Assembly (NCBI GenBank): GCA_947625005.1
Contig: CANQNA010000028.1
Span: 1-13,150, forward strand
DNA from: an uncultured Bacilli bacterium
GTDB taxonomy: Bacteria > Bacillota_I > Bacilli_A > RF39 > UBA660
DNA: 13,150 nucleotides
Direction: 5' to 3'
A program made the translations under genes and the position numbers. Below the pieces are notes generated by a model. It saw only the letters and a list, made by a program, of their open reading frames with translations, did no database searches and was not told where the DNA came from. Positions 2,501 through 12,037 of the stretch are shown here, one piece after another (position 1 is the first letter of the stretch; each line of letters opens with the position of its first letter).

Positions 2501-4315
2501 CTACAAAATGTTATTGATAAAATTAACATATTCTTGAATTAAATTACTAGTTTTACTTTTATAAACTAAAGAACTTGCTAAGGTTATATCATCCGTAATA
2601 ATATTATCAACATTACAAGATATCATTTTATTGATACTTTCTTCCGTATTAATAGTCCAAGCATATACCTCTTTACCTGCATTATGTAAATTATTAACTA
2701 AAGTTTTGGTAACACTTGAGGCTTCAACACTAAAACCATCCGCGGCGGTTAAAGATTTAATATCGCCATAAGCTAGACTCATAACATAAATTGTTTTAAT
2801 ACTCTTATCATAAGCTTTAACATTTTCCAATACTTCATAATGTTGCGAGGTAATAACACAATTATTTTCAAAATGATATTTTTTAATTAAATCAACAACT
2901 GATTTTTCAAAATCAGTTTCTTTACCAGTAGGCTTAAGTTCAATATTTAATTTCATGCCATTAGTTTGGGCAAATTCTATTACCTCACTTAATAAAGGAA
3001 TTTTTTCGCCTTGAAACTCTGGTCTAAAGAAACTTCCGGCATCTACATCTTTTATTTCTTCATAAGTTACATCATAAGTTTTTTTATTAATGCCCGTCGT
3101 TCTCTTTAAAGAGGTATCATGGATAACAATTATTTGTTGATCTTTAGTCTGTTGCACATCTAATTCAATCCAATCGGCTCCAAGTTCTTTAGCCCCAATA
3201 AAGGCCCGCATCGTATTTTCGGGATACATTGCTGATGCTCCCCGATGCGCGGTCACGGCCATTGGTCTTACATATTCTATTTTTAAATCATATTTATTAT
3301 TGATAACCGAATAAGTAAATAATGTTCCACTTATAAGTACTAAAATGATACAACTATATTTTAAAACTTTCAAATATTTTGCTTGTTGCTTTTTGGTAAT
3401 ACCTTTGCTTTTAATATGAATTATTTTTTCTTTTCTTTGTTCCTTATGTTTATAAAATAAAATACTTATTAAAGCATAACTTATTGGAGTTGCTAAAAGT
3501 AAAAGAATAATAAAAGATATAGCAATAAGTAACCAAATAATAGTAATTGAAAGATTACCTAAAATATTTACTTGACCAAATATCTTATAAATACCTATTA
3601 TTAGGAAAATACCTAAAAATATCCAAAAGACATAAACAAAAACAATACTTATTTGGGTAATTAAAATTCGAAGATAATCTTTTAATTTATTTTTAGAACT
3701 TAAAGCAACACTTTTATGCCGGGCTTCTTTAAAGTTACAATCTTCTAAAATAAAATAATGGAAAACATATAACCACCGAAATAAAAGAATAGTTAAGAAA
3801 ACAATTAAAGTAACGTAAATAATTGTAAGCACGGAATTATCCAAAATAAAATCTAAGATAAATTCGGGGAGTGATATTGTTGAAATAAAACCTGATGAAA
3901 TTCCCACATTTAAAAAGGGAATTAAAAAGATAACTAGGAACGGGATTAAAATATTTTCTTTTTTAAATACTCTTTTTGATTTATTTAAAGCTTGAATAAA
4001 AGCATCTTTAACACTTATTTTTTCTTTTTGGTAAGAAGCATCAAGAATTATAATAATTGTGCTAATATCGATAAAAGTATAGAAAGTCATAAATAAAAGT
4101 AAAAGTAAAATAAAAATAATAGCTAAAGGATTAATTAAAAAAGAAATTACATTTTCTAAAGTTAAATAATTATAGCCACATATTTTAGTAATAAATGAAA
4201 ATATACTTAAAAATAAAGGAACAAAAATAATTGTCGTTAATAATTTATATATTAATTCAAATAACGCTAGAGATTTAAAATTATAACCTAAAATATTTTT
4301 TAATTTACTACGCAT
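2501..4315 (-). CDS. Membrane-anchored glycerophosphodiester phosphodiesterase
   Basis: A 604-residue two-part protein. Residues about 1-285 are a multi-helix membrane domain of the type fused to GDPDs in Bacillota; a further membrane helix lies at about 318-340. From residue 352 comes a complete GDPD catalytic domain: HRG with His357, PEN with Glu366, ELD with Glu384 and Asp386, HD with His399, and NIELKP with Glu459, so every hallmark catalytic or metal ligand is present. The family hydrolyses glycerophosphodiesters, releasing glycerol-3-phosphate, and can act on lipid or teichoic-acid headgroups; here the active domain is probably outside the membrane. I place the start at the ATG at 4313-4315, preceded by AAAGTGAG. 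The earlier in-frame ATG (4328-4330) would have almost no leader after the -10 at 4340-4345. The stop TAG overlaps the next gene's ribosome site. Confidence 0.9.
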   Translation of the reverse strand: MRSKLKNILGYNFKSLALFELIYKLLTTIIFVPLFLSIFSFITKICGYNYLTLENVISFLINPLAIIFILLLLLFMTFYTFIDISTIIIILDASYQKEKISVKDAFIQALNKSKRVFKKENILIPFLVIFLIPFLNVGISSGFISTISLPEFILDFILDNSVLTIIYVTLIVFLTILLFRWLYVFHYFILEDCNFKEARHKSVALSSKNKLKDYLRILITQISIVFVYVFWIFLGIFLIIGIYKIFGQVNILGNLSITIIWLLIAISFIILLLLATPISYALISILFYKHKEQRKEKIIHIKSKGITKKQQAKYLKVLKYSCIILVLISGTLFTYSVINNKYDLKIEYVRPMAVTAHRGASAMYPENTMRAFIGAKELGADWIELDVQQTKDQQIIVIHDTSLKRTTGINKKTYDVTYEEIKDVDAGSFFRPEFQGEKIPLLSEVIEFAQTNGMKLNIELKPTGKETDFEKSVVDLIKKYHFENNCVITSQHYEVLENVKAYDKSIKTIYVMSLAYGDIKSLTAADGFSVEASSVTKTLVNNLHNAGKEVYAWTINTEESINKMISCNVDNIITDDITLASSLVYKSKTSNLIQEYVNFINNIL

Positions 4316-4339
4316 ATTACTCACTTTCATTCTAAAAAC

Positions 4340-4348
4340 ATTATACCA
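4340..4348 (-). promoter_or_regulatory. Extended -10 promoter of the GDPD unit
   Basis: TGGTATAAT on the minus strand is a perfect -10 hexamer (4340-4345) with the TG extension. No good -35 lies 16-18 bp upstream, as is usual for extended -10 promoters. Transcription should begin near 4333, leaving only about 3 bases before the ATG at 4328-4330 but about 18 before the ATG at 4313-4315. Confidence 0.6.
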
Positions 4349-4373
4349 TTATTTACCATAAAGAGTTACTTTT

Positions 4374-5048
4374 TTATTTATCATTTGTGGCATTGCCATC
4401 ACCTGTTATTGGGATTGTATCGCCTAAATATTTAGGTTTTGGTTTAAAAATACTAGTTACAAAGTCTTTATTACGAGCTAGTATTTCTCTTAGTTCCCGG
4501 TAAGTTGCTCCAGCATAAACGCGGGGGTCTGAGGCAACACCTACAGCTTCTAAGCCTAATTTATCAGCAATATATAAAGCCCGATATAAATGATATTCTT
4601 GCGTTACAATAATAGCTTTCTTACTTTGAAAAATAGCTTTGGCCCGATATATACTTTCATAAGTTGAAAATCCCGCATGGTCCATAAATATATCTTCACT
4701 AGCAACTCCCCTATCTAAAGCATATTGCTTCATGGGATTAACCTCATCATATGTCGTTTGGCCATGATCTCCTGACATAATTATTTTTGGTGCTGCCCCC
4801 TTATTATATAAGAAAATAGCCGTATCAAGTCTATCCGCGAGCATAGGACTGGGTCCATCACTCCAAATTTTTGCTCCTAAAACGATAATACAATCAAAAC
4901 CTTCAAAGTTATAAGAGGTAGTATCTTTAATTATTTGCTTTTTGGTTGAAGTTTTAACATAAGCATTTATCCCCAAGACAAATATTATTCCTAATAAAAT
5001 AATGCTAAATATAGTAATTAATATTATTTTAATTTTTTTCTTTTTCAT
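4374..5048 (-). CDS. SanA/YdcF-like DUF218 membrane protein
   Basis: A 224-residue protein. Residues about 6-28 form an N-terminal membrane anchor after a run of lysines. The rest is a DUF218 domain: DCIIVLGAKIWSDGPSPML (52-70), ADRLDTA, KIIMSGDHG (88-96), the acidic NPMKQYALDRGV segment, STYES (128-132), VTQEYHLYRALYIA (148-161) and REL near 184. These match the SanA/YdcF group, whose E. coli member SanA is linked to envelope barrier function and vancomycin exclusion; the chemistry is not settled. The start ATG at 5046-5048 has AGGAG at 5054-5058. An upstream in-frame ATG (5073-5075) lies inside the promoter's extended -10 element and cannot be in the transcript. It is a separate unit between the terminator at 5085-5117 and the GDPD promoter. 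Confidence 0.88.
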   Translation of the reverse strand: MKKKKIKIILITIFSIILLGIIFVLGINAYVKTSTKKQIIKDTTSYNFEGFDCIIVLGAKIWSDGPSPMLADRLDTAIFLYNKGAAPKIIMSGDHGQTTYDEVNPMKQYALDRGVASEDIFMDHAGFSTYESIYRAKAIFQSKKAIIVTQEYHLYRALYIADKLGLEAVGVASDPRVYAGATYRELREILARNKDFVTSIFKPKPKYLGDTIPITGDGNATNDK

Positions 5049-5065
5049 TTTGGCTCCTATTCTAA

Positions 5066-5074
5066 AGTATACCA
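5066..5074 (-). promoter_or_regulatory. Extended -10 promoter of the DUF218 gene
   Basis: TGGTATACT on the minus strand: a -10 hexamer TATACT (5066-5071, 5/6 match) with TG extension. Initiation near 5059 would place the ribosome site AGGAG almost at the 5' end of the message. It directly follows the terminator of the upstream sigma-factor operon, as expected for an independent unit. Confidence 0.55.
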
Positions 5075-5084
5075 TAGATTAACT

Positions 5085-5117
5085 AAAAAGAAAAAACTTG
5101 CCTTTATAACAAGTTTT
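5085..5117 (-). terminator. Rho-independent terminator of the ECF sigma operon
   Basis: An 8-bp stem (AAAACTTG / CAAGTTTT, 5093-5100 and 5110-5117) with a 9-base loop is followed on the minus strand by TTCTTTTT. The stem starts inside the stop codon (5116-5118) of the serpin-like gene, so the operon ends here. Confidence 0.8.
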
Positions 5118-6198
5118 ATTGATATTTGGTAATATCTGTTATTTTACCAACGAAATATGGTAAGTTTCTTCCCTTTTCTCGTAAAATAACAGCGAAGGTA
5201 TCATCAACGTAAAAGTAACGCAGTTCGGCTCCCTTCGATGCTGTATTTTTTACATCAATACCCGCCTCACTTTTAATACGACCGCCAGTTTCATCTAAAG
5301 TAAACTGAATACTTTGAATAGCTTGCTCTATTTCACCCGCTCCCTGAGATGTAACAAATTCTTTATTTTCTAGTTCCGTATATTCTTTGTAAACATTTAA
5401 GCTTAAATAAGGAGCTTTAAACTCATCAGTATCTCTAAATGATTTTGTTTCTGTATAACTAGCTGCTTTTACCAACATATTTTCATATATTTCTTTAAAA
5501 GTATTTCCCACAGGATTTTTGTAAAAAATAACTTCGTCATTATTTTTCGTATTAATTAAAATAGCAAAATCATCTTTAGAATTATAGAAAAGTACTTCAA
5601 TTTGTTCACCTACAATATCTTTTGTTTTACTATCAATTCCAAAATATTTAATATTTTCATATTTGCCAAAATTGGCATTTTTTAATTTACTAAATTTGTG
5701 AATAAAGGTAAATTCCCGGTATAGCATAGTATAGAAAAAGTAACGATTAGTATCTGTCAATCCCCCATCATCCAAAGCAGAATCACTCCAATCAAAATTA
5801 TCTAAAATATCACTTTTTTGATTAAATTTAGTTTTTAAATCTTGAATTATTTTTTCTTTTAAAGTCAATGTTTTTAACCCATAAATTTTATAATAGTAAT
5901 CATCATCTATCATTTGACTAGTAAATTCTTCTTTATTTAGATTTTCTGCATATGTTACTTGAGGGTCAAAAACAATATCTCCATGAACTATTTCCCTTTT
6001 CATATCATTCCATACCAGTTGAAAAGTTGCACACCAACTACTATCACCAGTAATATCATCTTGCATTGTTGGCACTATTGTTACCCCAACTGTGGGCTTT
6101 ATCTCCGGCTTTCTTTTAAAGAAAAAATAACTTATGCCAAACGCAATAGTAACTAAGATAACACCTGTTACTAATAAATATAATTTCTTTTTAGTCAT
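5116..6198 (-). CDS. Membrane-anchored serpin-like protein
   Basis: A 360-residue protein with one N-terminal membrane helix (about 5-27) and a large, probably extracytoplasmic, domain. I see a remote serpin-like layout: RYFFYTMLYREFTFIHKFS (152-170) where serpins have strand 3A; QIEVLFYNSKDDFAILIN (199-216) at the vvelPY..lsmlilLP region; FKAPYLSLNVYKEYTEL (260-276) at the PkFklesyydl..L region; LDETGGRIKSEAG (301-313) at the hinge; and FYVDDTFAVILREKG..PYFVGKI (329-352) at the C-terminal F..d.PFlflIrd...lFmGkv motif. The hinge lacks the small Thr/Ala residues of inhibitory serpins, so inhibition is doubtful. The fold call is inference from pattern alone. It is the last gene of the ECF operon; its ATG overlaps the previous gene by 8 bp, with GGAGG at 6205-6209 inside that gene. 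Confidence 0.8.
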   Translation of the reverse strand: MTKKKLYLLVTGVILVTIAFGISYFFFKRKPEIKPTVGVTIVPTMQDDITGDSSWCATFQLVWNDMKREIVHGDIVFDPQVTYAENLNKEEFTSQMIDDDYYYKIYGLKTLTLKEKIIQDLKTKFNQKSDILDNFDWSDSALDDGGLTDTNRYFFYTMLYREFTFIHKFSKLKNANFGKYENIKYFGIDSKTKDIVGEQIEVLFYNSKDDFAILINTKNNDEVIFYKNPVGNTFKEIYENMLVKAASYTETKSFRDTDEFKAPYLSLNVYKEYTELENKEFVTSQGAGEIEQAIQSIQFTLDETGGRIKSEAGIDVKNTASKGAELRYFYVDDTFAVILREKGRNLPYFVGKITDITKYQ

Positions 6199-6868
6199 CT
6201 TGAACCTCCATATTTTCTAAAATAAGTATTTCATATCCATCATCAATATTTTCATTATATAAAATTAAAGCAGCATCCATTGTCATATTTTCATAGTTTT
6301 CTATTTTAAGGTCCGCATCTTTACCATATTTATCTCTAGTTGCATCAACTACTAAATAAATAGTATCATTATAATAAAGTACGTCATAAATTATTAAATC
6401 GCCTTCGATAGTACTTCTTCCTATTCTAATAAAAGCACTTTGTTTATTTTGATAAGTCTTTTTAAATTCTAAGTAATTATCAAAATTATAAAGTTGGCCG
6501 TTGGCTTCAACTAAAACATTATCTTTTAAAGCCATATCAAAGTTATAATCCGGGCTTAACTTTCTTATATCAGTATCTTTAGTTAAAGGTAAATTATAAA
6601 ATGCATCAAGTGTATCTATTTTTTTATTTTCAAGAGGACAAGCGAATTTAGAGTTTTTAAAAAGCCAAGTTACAGTTATCAAATCTTGTTCTTGACAATA
6701 ATAGGTATCAATTAAGATTCCCTTATCTACATAACTATCGCCATCTAAATTTTCTTTCCAACTAATAATAGGACTGCCTTTACTTATCCTAGCGACTATG
6801 GTATCCAAAACAATAACTCCTAGAATACTAATTAAGATAATAAAAATATTTTTAACTATTTTAGACAT
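6191..6868 (-). CDS. DUF4362 domain membrane protein
   Basis: A 225-residue protein with an N-terminal membrane anchor (about 7-24) and a DUF4362-like C-terminal half. Residues 107-183 show the pattern YNFDMALKDNVLVEANGQLYN, then a spacer, then AFIRIGRSTIEGDLIIYDVLYYND and VVDATRDKYG, matching the family's DVV..G.vyN / iRi..yT.EGDpi...l.yd / D.TrDkyg pattern. Residues 35-100 are unassigned and contain two cysteines (58, 77). DUF4362 has no known enzyme activity and occurs in secreted proteins of Bacillota. I choose the ATG at 6866-6868, with AGGTG at 6875-6879; the GTG at 6875-6877 belongs to that ribosome site. The start overlaps the Ig-like gene by 8 bp. It is part of the ECF sigma operon. 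Confidence 0.82.
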   Translation of the reverse strand: MSKIVKNIFIILISILGVIVLDTIVARISKGSPIISWKENLDGDSYVDKGILIDTYYCQEQDLITVTWLFKNSKFACPLENKKIDTLDAFYNLPLTKDTDIRKLSPDYNFDMALKDNVLVEANGQLYNFDNYLEFKKTYQNKQSAFIRIGRSTIEGDLIIYDVLYYNDTIYLVVDATRDKYGKDADLKIENYENMTMDAALILYNENIDDGYEILILENMEVQDD

Positions 6869-7325
6869 CAGTATCACCTAAAACAAATTCCGCATAGACA
6901 TAGCCTTTTCCTACATAAGCACCATCTTTATCTATCGCAGCATCTTTAACAATTCGATATCGCCCAGCATCTAGCTTTCCATATAAAGTTTCCCAAGGTA
7001 TATCCATTTCTAAAATACCATCACTATCTACATAATAAGCTTCTAAAGTAAACACATAGTTATCAACGATTGGTTTAACTGGCACCCATTCTGCATTTTC
7101 ATATCTTTCAATTTTATAACTCTTACCATAGGTATGTAACTCATCTTTATTAGTACTTATAATAATAACGGTTGCACCAGTGCTTGTTAATGTTCCTTCT
7201 TTTATTACCATTGAGGTATCTTTTAAAAGATGTAGTTTTTTTTCTTCCACTTTCTCTAAGGAATCGGCAAAAGCTAAAAGAAAAAAGAAAGCTAATATTA
7301 ATCCCCCTATTATAAATCTTTTCAT
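6861..7325 (-). CDS. Secreted or anchored bacterial Ig-like protein
   Basis: A 154-residue protein with an N-terminal signal or membrane anchor (residues 1-20, LAFFFLLAFA core). The body resembles the bacterial Ig-like domain found in many small Bacillota lipoproteins (PF20251 type): TLTSTGATVIIISTNKD (45-61), GKSYKIERYENAEWVPVKP (67-85), then a strand with IPWETLYGKLDAGRYRIVKD (109-128) and YVYAEFVL at the end. Such domains usually mediate surface binding or assembly; no catalytic motif is seen. The stop codon of the preceding gene lies within this gene's ribosome site (TAGGAGG at 7331-7337), five bases before the ATG, an arrangement that favours translational coupling. It is the third gene of the ECF operon. 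Confidence 0.85.
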   Translation of the reverse strand: MKRFIIGGLILAFFFLLAFADSLEKVEEKKLHLLKDTSMVIKEGTLTSTGATVIIISTNKDELHTYGKSYKIERYENAEWVPVKPIVDNYVFTLEAYYVDSDGILEMDIPWETLYGKLDAGRYRIVKDAAIDKDGAYVGKGYVYAEFVLGDTDV

Positions 7326-7334
7326 GATTTCCTC

Positions 7335-7985
7335 CTAGATAAAATAAGATCTTAAAAACATAAGTAATTCATCTTGTTCTAAATTTAAAGTTTCAATTAC
7401 ATAATTATAATCTTTATAACTACTAATTGTTATAAATTTATTGTTGCTAGCAAATATCTTAACTTCCGTATCATTTATAAATGAAGATTCACCTGTTTTT
7501 TCCATCGAACTATATTTAGAGTATTTTTCCTTACTATAGGTAATATTTAAGTATCTATTATTATTACTATAAGCTATAATATAGTAACTTATTTTATTAT
7601 CATTACTGTAGACTACATAAGTTTTTTTGGTATTTAAATCTTCCGGTATATAAACATTATTCATACTAAAAGGTTCAATTATCTCTTGCTCCTCTAATTT
7701 TTCATTAGAGGTTAATCCTTCCATTTCGGATGCCGTTGAAGAAGCAATTTCATTTATAATAATTTCACCATCAAGTTTAGTAGCCATATTATAATTTAAA
7801 GAATTTTTAGCGCTTTTGTTGGAATTTAAAATAAATAAACTAACTATTAATATAAGACAAACTGGAACTAAAACATATTTCCAATTAAATGCTGGTTTAT
7901 TAATTTTTTCGATTATTTGATTATAGTTTTCTATCTTGTTTATATCTTTTTCGATAGATTGTTTTAATTTTCCTTTATTAGTCAT
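7335..7985 (-). CDS. Putative membrane anti-sigma factor
   Basis: A 216-residue single-pass membrane protein: a charged, probably cytoplasmic N-terminus rich in Lys, Glu and Ile (1-34), a membrane helix (about 36-54, YVLVPVCLILIVSLFIL) and an extracytoplasmic part of about 160 residues. The end (167-214: SSFINDTEVKIFAS, KFITISSY, YNYVIETLNLEQDELLMFLRS) resembles the outer domain of some Bacillota anti-sigma-like proteins (DUF4367 style). No zinc-binding HxxxCxxC motif is present, so it is not a ZAS-type anti-sigma factor. The function is inferred mainly from position: it starts 6 bp after the ECF sigma gene and has the expected topology. The ribosome site is a G run (GGGGGG) just before the sigma stop. 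Binding to the sigma factor is not visible in sequence. Confidence 0.75.
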   Translation of the reverse strand: MTNKGKLKQSIEKDINKIENYNQIIEKINKPAFNWKYVLVPVCLILIVSLFILNSNKSAKNSLNYNMATKLDGEIIINEIASSTASEMEGLTSNEKLEEQEIIEPFSMNNVYIPEDLNTKKTYVVYSNDNKISYYIIAYSNNNRYLNITYSKEKYSKYSSMEKTGESSFINDTEVKIFASNNKFITISSYKDYNYVIETLNLEQDELLMFLRSYFI

Positions 7986-7991
7986 TATTCA

Positions 7992-8531
7992 TTACCCCCC
8001 TTTTCCAAATGTCTCTTGTAACTCATGAAGTGTACGATAAAGTAAATGCTTAACATAAGAAATATTAACATTTAAAAGACTAGCAATTTCTTTTAAAGAT
8101 ACATCACTTTGATAATATAAATAAAATATTTTGGGTATATCTTGATTCTTTTTCTTTTTTAAATAAGACCAAATATTATCCCAATCATCTTTTTTAATTA
8201 CTAAGTCATTAATATTAATAGATGATGCTACCATATCTTTTAAAGGAATGCCTTCCATATTTTCTTCTTCTAAAGAAATAGCTTTTATTCTTTGAAGTAA
8301 GGAATAATGTTTTTTTATTTTGTAATTTGCAATACCCCAAAGAAAACTTTTTAAATTGGTATCAGTTATTTCTTTTTTATTTAATATTTTCCATAATTCG
8401 AAATAAATCTCTTGCATAATATCATTAACATCATTAATATTATGGCACTTAATAACCACATATTTAAGAGTATCTAAATATGTTTGATTATAAATTTCAT
8501 TAAATTTCGATAGGTTTAAATTGCTAGCCAT
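7992..8531 (-). CDS. ECF-type RNA polymerase sigma factor
   Basis: A 179-residue group 4 (ECF) sigma factor. Region 2 covers about residues 10-75 (FNEIYNQTYLDTLKYV, DVNDIMQEIYFELWK, LKSFLWGIANYKIKKHY), the core-binding and -10-recognition part. A linker with an acidic stretch follows, then region 4 at about 128-172 (QDIPKIFYLYYQSDVSLKEIASLLNVNISYVKHLLYRTLHELQE) with a helix-turn-helix at about 144-164 for the -35. Regions 1 and 3 are absent, as in ECF factors. I choose the ATG at 8529-8531 with AGGTG upstream; the GTG at 8538-8540 belongs to that ribosome site. It is first in a five-gene operon with a membrane protein directly behind it, the usual sigma/anti-sigma order. A GGAAC element at 8575-8579 suggests it may transcribe its own operon. 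Confidence 0.9.
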   Translation of the reverse strand: MASNLNLSKFNEIYNQTYLDTLKYVVIKCHNINDVNDIMQEIYFELWKILNKKEITDTNLKSFLWGIANYKIKKHYSLLQRIKAISLEEENMEGIPLKDMVASSININDLVIKKDDWDNIWSYLKKKKNQDIPKIFYLYYQSDVSLKEIASLLNVNISYVKHLLYRTLHELQETFGKGG

Positions 8532-8552
8532 ATTCTTCACCTACAATATAAT

Positions 8553-8579
8553 AATCCCATTATTCTCTAAAAAAGTTCC
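8553..8579 (-). promoter_or_regulatory. Candidate ECF-type autoregulatory promoter
   Basis: TGGAAC followed by a T run (GGAAC at 8575-8579 on the minus strand) is the typical -35 context of many ECF promoters. The matching -10 would fall about 16-17 bp downstream, near 8553-8558 (GGGATT), not a familiar ECF -10. TATTAT/TATATT just beyond could serve a housekeeping polymerase. I saw no other non-coding GGAAC on this strand. Confidence 0.4.
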
Positions 8580-9029: not shown

Positions 9030-9715
9030 TTAATTTCCACTTTTTGGTATTAAAGCAACAATTCTACTAGCAAAATCATTAAAGTTTTGAGTTTGTAGAA
9101 CTATTTTACCAGGACCAGTTAATTTAGTTAAAAATAAACCTTCGCCTCCAAATAAAACATTTTTAATACCTTTTATACTTTCAATTTCATAATTAACAGT
9201 TTTTTCAAAAGCAACTACATTACCAGTATCAACTTTAATTACTTCACCATCTTTTAATTCTTTAACTATTTGGTCGCCATCAACTTCTAAAAATACATTT
9301 CCATATCCGGAGATATTTTGTAAGATAAAACCTTCTCCACCAAATAATCCGGCACCTAATTTTTTCTAAATGCAACTTTTAATTCTATAGTTGGTTCTGC
9401 ACACAGAAAAGCTCCTTTTTGAACAATTAATCCTGGATGTTTAGCTTCTAATTTTAAATCTAATATACCACCAGGCACGGTTGAATCAAAGGCAATTTTT
9501 TGATTATCTTCAGTTGCAGTATATGTATTCATAAATAATGATTCTCCTGAAAATACTCTACCTAATCCTTTCATTAATCCACCTCTGGTATTAGTTTCAG
9601 AATTAATTCCTGATGTCATCCATGTCATCGCTCCTGATTGAGTAAATAAACTTTCTCCTTTTTTCAATTTAAATTCAACAGCCGGCACTGTTTGGCCTAT
9701 TATTTTATATTCCAT
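9030..9715 (-). pseudogene. AIM24/TIGR00266 family protein, frameshifted
   Basis: The first 119 residues (9356-9715; MEYKIIG, LKKGESLFTQSGAMTWMTSGI, RGGLMKGLGRVFSGESLFMNTYTA, PGGILDLKL, QKGAFLCAEPTIELKVAFRKN) end at TAG. The missing half lies in the -1 frame directly after it: LGAGLFGGEGFILQNISGYGNVFLEVDGD, IVKELKDGEVIKVDTGNVVAFE, NVLFGGEGLFLTKLTGPGKIVLQTQ, ending at 9030. Joined, they give about 228 residues, the normal family length, with the glycine-rich repeats in the right places. The break is at a run of six A (9360-9365, minus strand); one more A restores the frame. The second half has no ATG, GTG or TTG, so it cannot start by itself. It could be a broken gene, a homopolymer error in the assembly, or a frameshift on A-AAA-AAT. 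AIM24-type proteins form beta-rich trimers of poorly known function. A promoter is present at 9740-9768. Confidence 0.85.
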
Positions 9716-10924: not shown

Positions 10925-12037
10925 CTATTTAGTAATGTGATGATTTATTTTTCTTCGAGCCAAGGTTTTAGCATAAATTCTTGTATGTTCTATTTTTTCT
11001 ATTTCACTTAGTTGGGGATAATCATGTGATTTTATAATAGTGGAATCAGTATAAGTACAGATTTCAATATGTTGAGGTTTTATTTCATTAAGAACTTCTA
11101 AAGTTTCTCTTATATCCTCATATTGTTCCGTGGGAAAACCAGCAATTATATTAAGAATTAAATCTATATCGTGATTACCTCTAATATACTTTATAAATTG
11201 CAAAATTTCTTTTTTTTGTATAGCCTTTTTGCATGAGTTCTAAAATACGATTACTACCCGATTCTAAAGAACCATTTAAGGCTGTAACTTTGGTACTTTT
11301 CCTTAAAACATCCTTGAAACCGCCTTTGATAGCATCATGAAAAGCAAAGCCAAATAATTCAGCTCTTTTAACATTATCTAATCCTTCTAAGTATTCTATT
11401 ACCTCAGGCAATTCATAACTACCACGATCAAGACCATATTGACAGACATTTAAACCTTTAATTTGTAAATAAGATATCTTTTTATCATTAGCAATTTCTA
11501 AAACTTCTTTTACTTCACTAATAGGAGCGCTTATAAGCGGTAAACTTTGATAATTTGCCTTACAAAAAGTGCAAGAATTTAAGCACCCCGTTGAAATAAA
11601 GATATCAGCACTATTATCAGCATAAGGTATCAGTGTACCATATCCACCTTCTTCTGGCACTTCATTATATAGAATTTTTAATAATTTTTCAGGTTCATCT
11701 TCGGGAATAATATAATCCATTTTTGATTATAATGAGTTAATAATATCACCTATTTCACCTGAAATAGTAAATTCTCTAGCAAAACAGCCAGCCAAAATAG
11801 TTTTAGCGCTTGGCTTCTTTTTTTCTAATATTTCATTTATAAAGTCAATTACGCCCATAATATGACCTAGGGTACAAGCACAGGTACTACTCAGTATAAT
11901 TATATCAGCTTCTTCTAAAAAACTTTCAGCTTCTTCATAAGTACTATTAGTTTGAAATCTATTATGAAGGGCAACTCAAAAAACTCACTTTGGTAATGAA
12001 AAGCACATTCATTAGTTCCGAGCATAAATATTTTCAT
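10925..12037 (-). pseudogene. MiaB-like radical SAM methylthiotransferase, broken
   Basis: Three pieces reconstruct one protein of about 371 residues. The N-terminal UPF0004-type domain has its cysteines in TNEC, SSTCAC and AGCFARE. The radical SAM domain has CLNSCTFC (cysteine codons at 11583-11585, 11571-11573 and 11562-11564), then GSLESGSNRILELMQKGYTKK and IIAGFPTEQYEDIRETL, all typical of enzymes that methylthiolate tRNA adenosine 37 or ribosomal protein S12. Lesions: a missing base near 11966-11972 (frame shifts after ELPF); an in-frame TAA at 11727-11729; and an extra base in a run of eight A (11210-11217, minus strand). The protein ends without a TRAM domain, so it may also be truncated. 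The start ATG (12035-12037) keeps a good GAGGTGG ribosome site, suggesting recent loss. One-base homopolymer changes could be assembly errors, but the stop codon cannot be explained that way. Which methylthiotransferase it was is not decidable here. Confidence 0.8.

Follow-up and report, generated by a model that had tools for sequence, protein, structure and literature searches.

A predicted serpin-fold protein in a putatively autoregulated ECF sigma factor operon of an uncultured Bacilli bacterium, and its sigma-linked relatives elsewhere

The DNA analysed here (the window) is a stretch of 13,150 nucleotides from an uncultured Bacilli bacterium, the minus strand of which carries, running from 8540 to 5116, five open reading frames that encode a sigma factor, a single-pass protein in the anti-sigma position, an Ig-like protein, a DUF4362 protein and a serpin-like protein (Table 1). 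The set is the one that a first-pass annotation had placed there, and the tight packing that it described is borne out by the junctions: in order, the first two are gaps (6 and 9 nt) and the last two are overlaps (17 and 8 nt), of which the 17-nt one, between the Big_14 and DUF4362 genes, holds only with a GTG start. Membrane anchoring of four of the proteins is assigned from N-terminal hydrophobic stretches judged by eye. The hairpin behind the serpin-like gene recurs in the nearest named relative (L001, see below) and was not found at the matching place in two operons of other relatives (L057 and L058); being A-T-rich and without an entry in a consensus scan, it was overstated as a strong terminator.

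Table 1. Features of the operon, with positions in the window.
Feature	Positions	Strand	Basis or remark
ECF-type promoter of the sigma gene, GGAACTTTTTT-N11-GGATTA	8552..8579	-	Conserved across relatives
ECF sigma factor, 182 aa, GTG start, ATG three codons in	7992..8540	-	TIGR02937
Single-pass protein in anti-sigma position, 216 aa: short inner part, helix ~36-53, outer domain	7335..7985	-	
Big_14 Ig-like protein, 154 aa, N-terminal hydrophobic stretch	6861..7325	-	PF20251, E 2.5e-17
DUF4362 protein, 228 aa, N-terminal hydrophobic stretch	6191..6877	-	PF14275, above cut-off
Membrane-anchored serpin-fold protein (predicted), 360 aa: helix 3-27, serpin fold from ~residue 43	5116..6198	-	
Reactive-loop hinge, residues 303-312	5263..5292	-	Near-fixed GGx[IVL]KSEA, 119 domains
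Variable loop, residues 313-326	5221..5262	-	Column entropy, 119 domains
Weak terminator-like hairpin, T-rich tail	~5084..5117	-	-7.8 kcal/mol

The first reading frame scores 46.8 bits against the sigma70-ECF model TIGR02937 (curated cut-off 42.9) and its product has Sigma-70 regions 2 and 4 only, the single Pfam regions scoring slightly under their cut-offs; we therefore class it as an ECF sigma factor. From its position 6 nt behind the sigma gene and its topology, with a modelled helix at residues 36-53, we infer that the single-pass protein acts as the anti-sigma factor, and it is so called below. It matched no Pfam family, its inner (sigma-side) part is modelled at low confidence, and a Foldseek search with the model gave no match at E values up to 0.001; the best structural comparison, with RseB (Z 8.3, rmsd 3.6, 96 residues aligned), is at a level commonly reached by chance. 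A protein search with the same factor returned three proteins, the window's own among them. The third and fourth reading frames pass the Pfam cut-offs for Big_14 (PF20251, 63.2 bits, cut-off 27) and DUF4362 (PF14275, 28.2 bits, cut-off 25), respectively; a literature search for DUF4362 found no paper that mentions it.

The GGAAC element proposed upstream of the sigma gene, GGAACTTTTTT (8569-8579, minus strand), is not demonstrably significant from the window alone, since a scan of the window allowing one mismatch gave 4 matches against a chance mean of 3.6, i.e. no excess; comparison across relatives supports it. The motif GRAACTTTTT lies close to the sigma gene's start in 23/36 sigma/anti-sigma pairs, as against 2/322 other reading frames of more than 300 nt from the same loci, and 10 of the 13 pairs without it seem, by eye, to form a sigma subgroup of their own. 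In its strict form, GGAACTTTTTT-N(8-13)-GGATTA, the pattern has a single site in each of four genomes (G001, G007, G026 and G033), always 5' of this sigma gene, and its reversed control has none in these genomes. The sole strict site in each genome makes the description of the operon as self-contained a fair one. GGAAC-type autoregulation is assigned by motif, and this comparison makes it very probable that the operon is transcribed by its own sigma factor. A wider regulon was sought in the same four genomes at three mismatches; the counts (23, 11, 19 and 24) did not clearly exceed those of the reversed control (15, 13, 15 and 10). In G033, two such three-mismatch sites stand before its other two sigma genes. 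A first version of the promoter pattern was a poor choice, matching in just 2/7 genomes, and was dropped.

Serpins are best known as animal protease inhibitors and are textbook metastable proteins. The fifth reading frame matches the Serpin family PF00079 below its cut-off (19.4 bits, cut-off 27, over residues 284-355), as do relatives (22.1 bits for L009, 25.4 bits for L031); the predicted model of the protein nonetheless has the serpin fold, which upholds the serpin-like label given to it on first reading. Alignment of 119 domains reveals a near-invariant hinge, with Gly305 present in 119/119 and Gly306 in 112/119, followed by a loop (residues 315-324) with entropies of 2.4-3.8 bits, compared with a domain mean of 1.6. 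The fold, together with a variable loop after a fixed hinge, would suit an active inhibitory serpin, induced by envelope stress and protecting the cell against proteases of host or competitors. We consider such a role improbable, because the hinge (ETGGRIKSE) departs at P14 and P12-P9 from the inhibitory consensus ExGTEAAAA (P17-P9; PMC8233489), and because the Pfam cut-off is missed. These two properties, along with its family's ties to transcription regulators, set it apart from miropin, the 1mtp serpin and similar bacterial serpins. PMC8233489 notes membrane-anchored prokaryotic serpins and does not use the term 'sigma factor'. No match to the serpin-like protein was found in plasmid and phage collections.

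The nearest named record, L001, is a metagenome-assembled genome labelled 'uncultured Bacilli bacterium', isolate Lapin-020 (1.2 Mb assembly), the isolate name of which we read as indicating rabbit origin; it carries all five genes in identical order. From ~8.5 to 1.2 kb the two sequences are almost identical, save for an island at 6100-5050 that is ~10% different and coincides with the serpin-like gene minus its first 33 codons, which are without differences. The two serpin-like proteins are 88% identical. Over codons 34-360 dS is 0.37 and dN/dS 0.19, compared with a dS of 0 to 0.09 in seven neighbouring genes. Given this divergence amid near-identical DNA, the stretch appears to have been imported, and we read the gene as an imported allele under purifying rather than diversifying selection; positive selection was considered and rejected, the dN/dS being 0.19 and the excess near the loop being present in dS too.

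Comparison with more distant relatives separates the operon into what would be a stable pair of genes and a changing remainder. Homologues of the sigma factor adjoin the anti-sigma gene in 13/13 regions examined outside the genome of L001, in one of which (L067) the anti-sigma reading frame is broken, and in a further 20/20 regions selected from the better anti-sigma hits in another order. A DUF4362 protein is third in 2/13 of the former (L057 and L058), with DUF218 next, as in the window, and neither Big_14 nor a serpin gene is in the operon in any of the 13. The longer C termini of the L057 and L058 DUF4362 homologues were considered as possible Big_14 fusions and fail to match Big_14. Among the 20 regions, a DUF4362-related protein follows in L206 and L214, in both of which Pfam detects no DUF4362, and lies upstream in L215. 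The 99 genomes around that of L001 (G001) include 11 with the anti-sigma protein and two with the serpin-like protein, namely G001 itself and a 71-residue match in G010. Among the 41 loci recruited by the window's serpin-like protein, this operon was found in L001 alone, with 10 of the loci having <2.4 kb of upstream sequence, too short to judge; in these and the 13 anti-sigma regions, a Big_14 gene within the operon is likewise confined to the window and L001. By the refuting condition that the first-pass annotation itself set, the exact five-gene set is not conserved, and the interpretation put forward there holds in respect of a self-contained ECF operon and is not supported in respect of conservation of the set. 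On this gene content the sigma and anti-sigma genes are the apparent core of the operon, Big_14 and the serpin being probable local additions, although the scarcity of the serpin among relatives could also reflect loss.

These comparisons also bear on the proposal, made when the locus was first described, of a single surface complex, made up of the Big_14, DUF4362 and serpin-fold proteins, from which the sigma factor would take its signal. The spacing of the genes makes a single transcript likely, and at one locus elsewhere (L186) a serpin-like gene comes next after the gene of a protein above the DUF4362 cut-off, which itself comes next after a sigma gene; yet all three proteins were found together in the window and L001 only, and we regard such a complex as highly improbable.

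The result of most interest lies outside the window, where serpin-fold domains are wired to sigma factors. One relative, L037, is a single protein of 564 residues in which sigma regions 2 and 4 are followed by a stretch that is hydrophobic by eye (~208-230) and then by a serpin-like domain. With L037 as query, 7999 candidates were scored and 797 proteins found; the 120 matches listed of these all have sigma domains by Pfam and align over 95-99% of L037, and a serpin-like family HMM from which L037 was left out detects the domain with E below 1e-90 in 35/35 aligned relatives drawn from the 120. Sigma factor and outer domain are therefore in one chain in L037 and these 35 proteins, whereas in the window they are separate genes.

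The serpin-like domain is present in 120/336 genomes of one order, where 60 regions, a non-random choice made in part on frame length, yielded 62 serpin-like genes: 10 sigma-fused, 11 immediately preceded by a same-strand sigma gene and 41 other. In five of the last (L151, L152, L166, L177 and L186) a sigma gene lies at a greater distance upstream within the run. The neighbour is an ordinary sigma gene in L173-L176, as well as in L137 (outside the 60); in another group it encodes a longer sigma protein (~284-330 residues, one checked in Pfam) that extends past the sigma domain with, by eye, hydrophobic stretches. In L197 a putative sigma-like gene lies 290 bp upstream of the serpin-like gene. 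The middle gene of L166, a candidate DUF4362 relative, matched solely an HMM containing a protein of L133 (see below), and was not counted. In all six Gastranaerophilales-type loci (L031-L036) a small gene and one further gene precede the serpin-like gene, which begins 10-40 bp behind, and in two of them (L031 and L032) Pfam identifies the small gene as Penicillinase_R (BlaI/MecI). Distant relatives of the window's protein thus occur in one chain with ECF sigma factors or in genes next to theirs, an arrangement that suggests an undescribed route by which bacteria sense conditions outside the cell. The first interpretation gains from this a support that was not visible from the window's sequence.

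A second operon of this kind is L133 (G129), in which a sigma gene, a window-type anti-sigma gene (E 7e-55 against an HMM not containing the L133 protein) and a third gene are followed by a sigma-serpin fusion. The first 87 residues of the third protein are common to DUF4362 proteins (E 2e-20, HMM without L133); with only these matching and no DUF4362 detected by Pfam, we do not count it as a true DUF4362 protein. L206 has an anti-sigma protein very similar to that of L133 and the first three genes, with no serpin behind. Among the places listed for the 336 genomes, L133 is the only one in which the distance from a window-type anti-sigma gene to a serpin-like gene is <=5 kb (1/336 genomes); in G284 and G293 they share a contig at distances of ~6 and ~11 kb.

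When the serpin family was placed in a quick tree (108 rows, SH-aLRT support only), a branch with support of 99 set apart 26 rows, i.e. 18 fused, 4 split, 2 BlaI-linked and 2 without a noted regulator. The window falls across that branch, within a 42-row subgroup whose 41 further members have no noted regulator (27 of the 41 are database proteins and neighbourhood is covered for 14). Since the window is placed apart from the fused, split and BlaI-linked rows, its serpin-sigma link is probably separate and recent, rather than inherited from the fused arrangement.

On a rival reading, the serpin-fold gene may be a passenger or target, i.e. a stand-alone envelope protein, acquired by transfer and inserted behind a regulated promoter, that the sigma factor expresses without being informed by it. 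The absence of a noted link in the rest of the subgroup accords with this reading, as do the absence of a conserved sigma neighbour from most of the 41 loci recruited by the window's protein, the absence of the protein from 97/99 relatives and the extent of the imported stretch, which spans most of the gene. Against it stand the relatives fused to, split from or adjoining sigma factors, and the similar operon in L133 that terminates in a sigma-serpin fusion; we hold it to be quite possible, if short of probable.

To the best overall explanation, that of an autoregulated ECF operon in which a serpin-fold module feeds back on sigma release, we assign about an even chance. The unlinked rows of the subgroup, the 41/62 sampled genes classed as other and the 1/336 frequency of the window-type combination among the listed places all argue against it. 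According to this feedback model, the operon would be an autoregulated sigma/anti-sigma unit of a gut Bacilli species, transcribed by its own sigma factor from the GGAAC promoter, with the anti-sigma factor holding the sigma factor and its outer domain sensing an envelope condition. The genes after the pair would be exchangeable envelope proteins, among which the membrane-anchored serpin-fold protein would have been inserted lately between DUF4362 and DUF218, its source being a family of extracytoplasmic serpin-fold modules of other gut bacteria, there used in chains of sigma factor, membrane helix and serpin fold or encoded near a sigma factor or BlaI-type repressor. The protein is most likely a non-inhibitory, loop-inserting module, the variable loop of which would meet a ligand or protease outside the cell; the resulting conformation, with loop insertion as the presumed switch in the model, may then act on sigma release through contact with the sigma/anti-sigma pair.

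With respect to known systems, the sigma gene followed by a single-pass protein and the conserved promoter motif resemble the canonical ECF/anti-sigma arrangement as described in PMC8999054; the lack of a Pfam family for the anti-sigma protein and the extra envelope genes, one of predicted serpin fold, do not. ECF factors fused to membrane-spanning anti-sigma parts appear in that review of non-canonical ECF factors (IutY of ECF243, ECF48/52/53 and ECF36), in which the word serpin does not occur. The relatives of the window's serpin resemble these in combining sigma factor, hydrophobic stretch and outer domain in one chain, and differ in the serpin fold of the outer domain, the window itself differing in that its sigma and serpin genes are separate. 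A literature search found no title on a sigma-serpin link, though mention within the text of some paper is possible. The small gene before the serpin-like gene in L031-L036 recalls the BlaI/MecI repressor family, a likeness that belongs to the relatives and not to the window.

More broadly, there may be a widespread, undescribed class of switch consisting of an outer serpin fold, one membrane helix and an ECF sigma factor in the same chain or as a neighbour, in which insertion of the variable loop into the central sheet would do the sensing, and cleavage or ligand binding outside the cell would hold or release the sigma factor within, the window being a recent capture by a conventional sigma/anti-sigma operon; this generalization is speculative and we rate it as somewhat unlikely. 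If true, a large membrane-anchored serpin-fold family would give serpins a signalling role in bacteria, and ECF signalling would gain an outer domain to which a change of conformation is intrinsic. The single-chain sigma-serpin proteins are direct objects on which to test the switch idea. In raw, uncontrolled counts, GAAACTTTT is found upstream of 8/15 fused genes, 0/10 longer sigma genes and 0/5 split pairs.

Comparison of the window with its nearest named record, L001, a MAG of an uncultured Bacilli bacterium that carries the same five genes in the same order, reveals an island of approximately 10% divergence over the serpin-like gene (window 5050-6100), set in surrounding DNA that is near-identical; the island is probably an imported allele. 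The DNA immediately 5' of the operon is also unlike in the two otherwise near-identical records (window upstream of ~8580 versus L001 1-5600), with L001 having other genes in this region than those present in the window.

Three other loci carry neighboring copies of sigma-fused or serpin-like proteins (table), an arrangement that suggests local duplication.

Adjoining copies of sigma-fused or serpin-like proteins in three loci
Locus	Positions	Feature
L155	5396-10251	adjoining copies
L161	2980-6566	adjoining copies
L162	2467-5690	adjoining copies

Locus L215, identified from anti-sigma matches, contains two tandem sigma/anti-sigma pairs (3275-7001), with a DUF4362-related gene upstream.

Related sigma-like genes lie 0.3-1.9 kb from a downstream, otherwise stand-alone serpin-like gene in L010 (7036-7686), L017 (5305-5949) and L020 (6778-7482), an upstream position that may be due to chance. 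At three other loci, L151 (1808-2314), L152 and L177 (15647-16153), sigma frames near a serpin-like gene stop early at roughly the same point; either the three loci have a frame change in common or the early stops stem from assembly. Some proteins in which the sigma and serpin-like domains are fused in one chain (P0126, P0230 and P0238) have an additional C-terminal stretch matching DUF3221, the Pfam match for P0126 being marginally under the cut-off.

In all six Gastranaerophilales-type loci (L031-L036), which are from another phylum, a BlaI/MecI-type repressor gene and a gene for a 121-123 aa protein precede a membrane serpin-like gene, and in L003 the serpin-like gene begins 46 bp after the end of a helix-turn-helix-like protein (7128-7859; family assigned by eye).

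Elsewhere in the window, a 119 aa AIM24-type frame (9356-9715) is possibly cut short, since its match spans only positions 1-114 of the 205 in the family model. Two adjoining frames at 10925-11720 match MiaB/RimO radical SAM models in consecutive parts, as if a single gene had been split.
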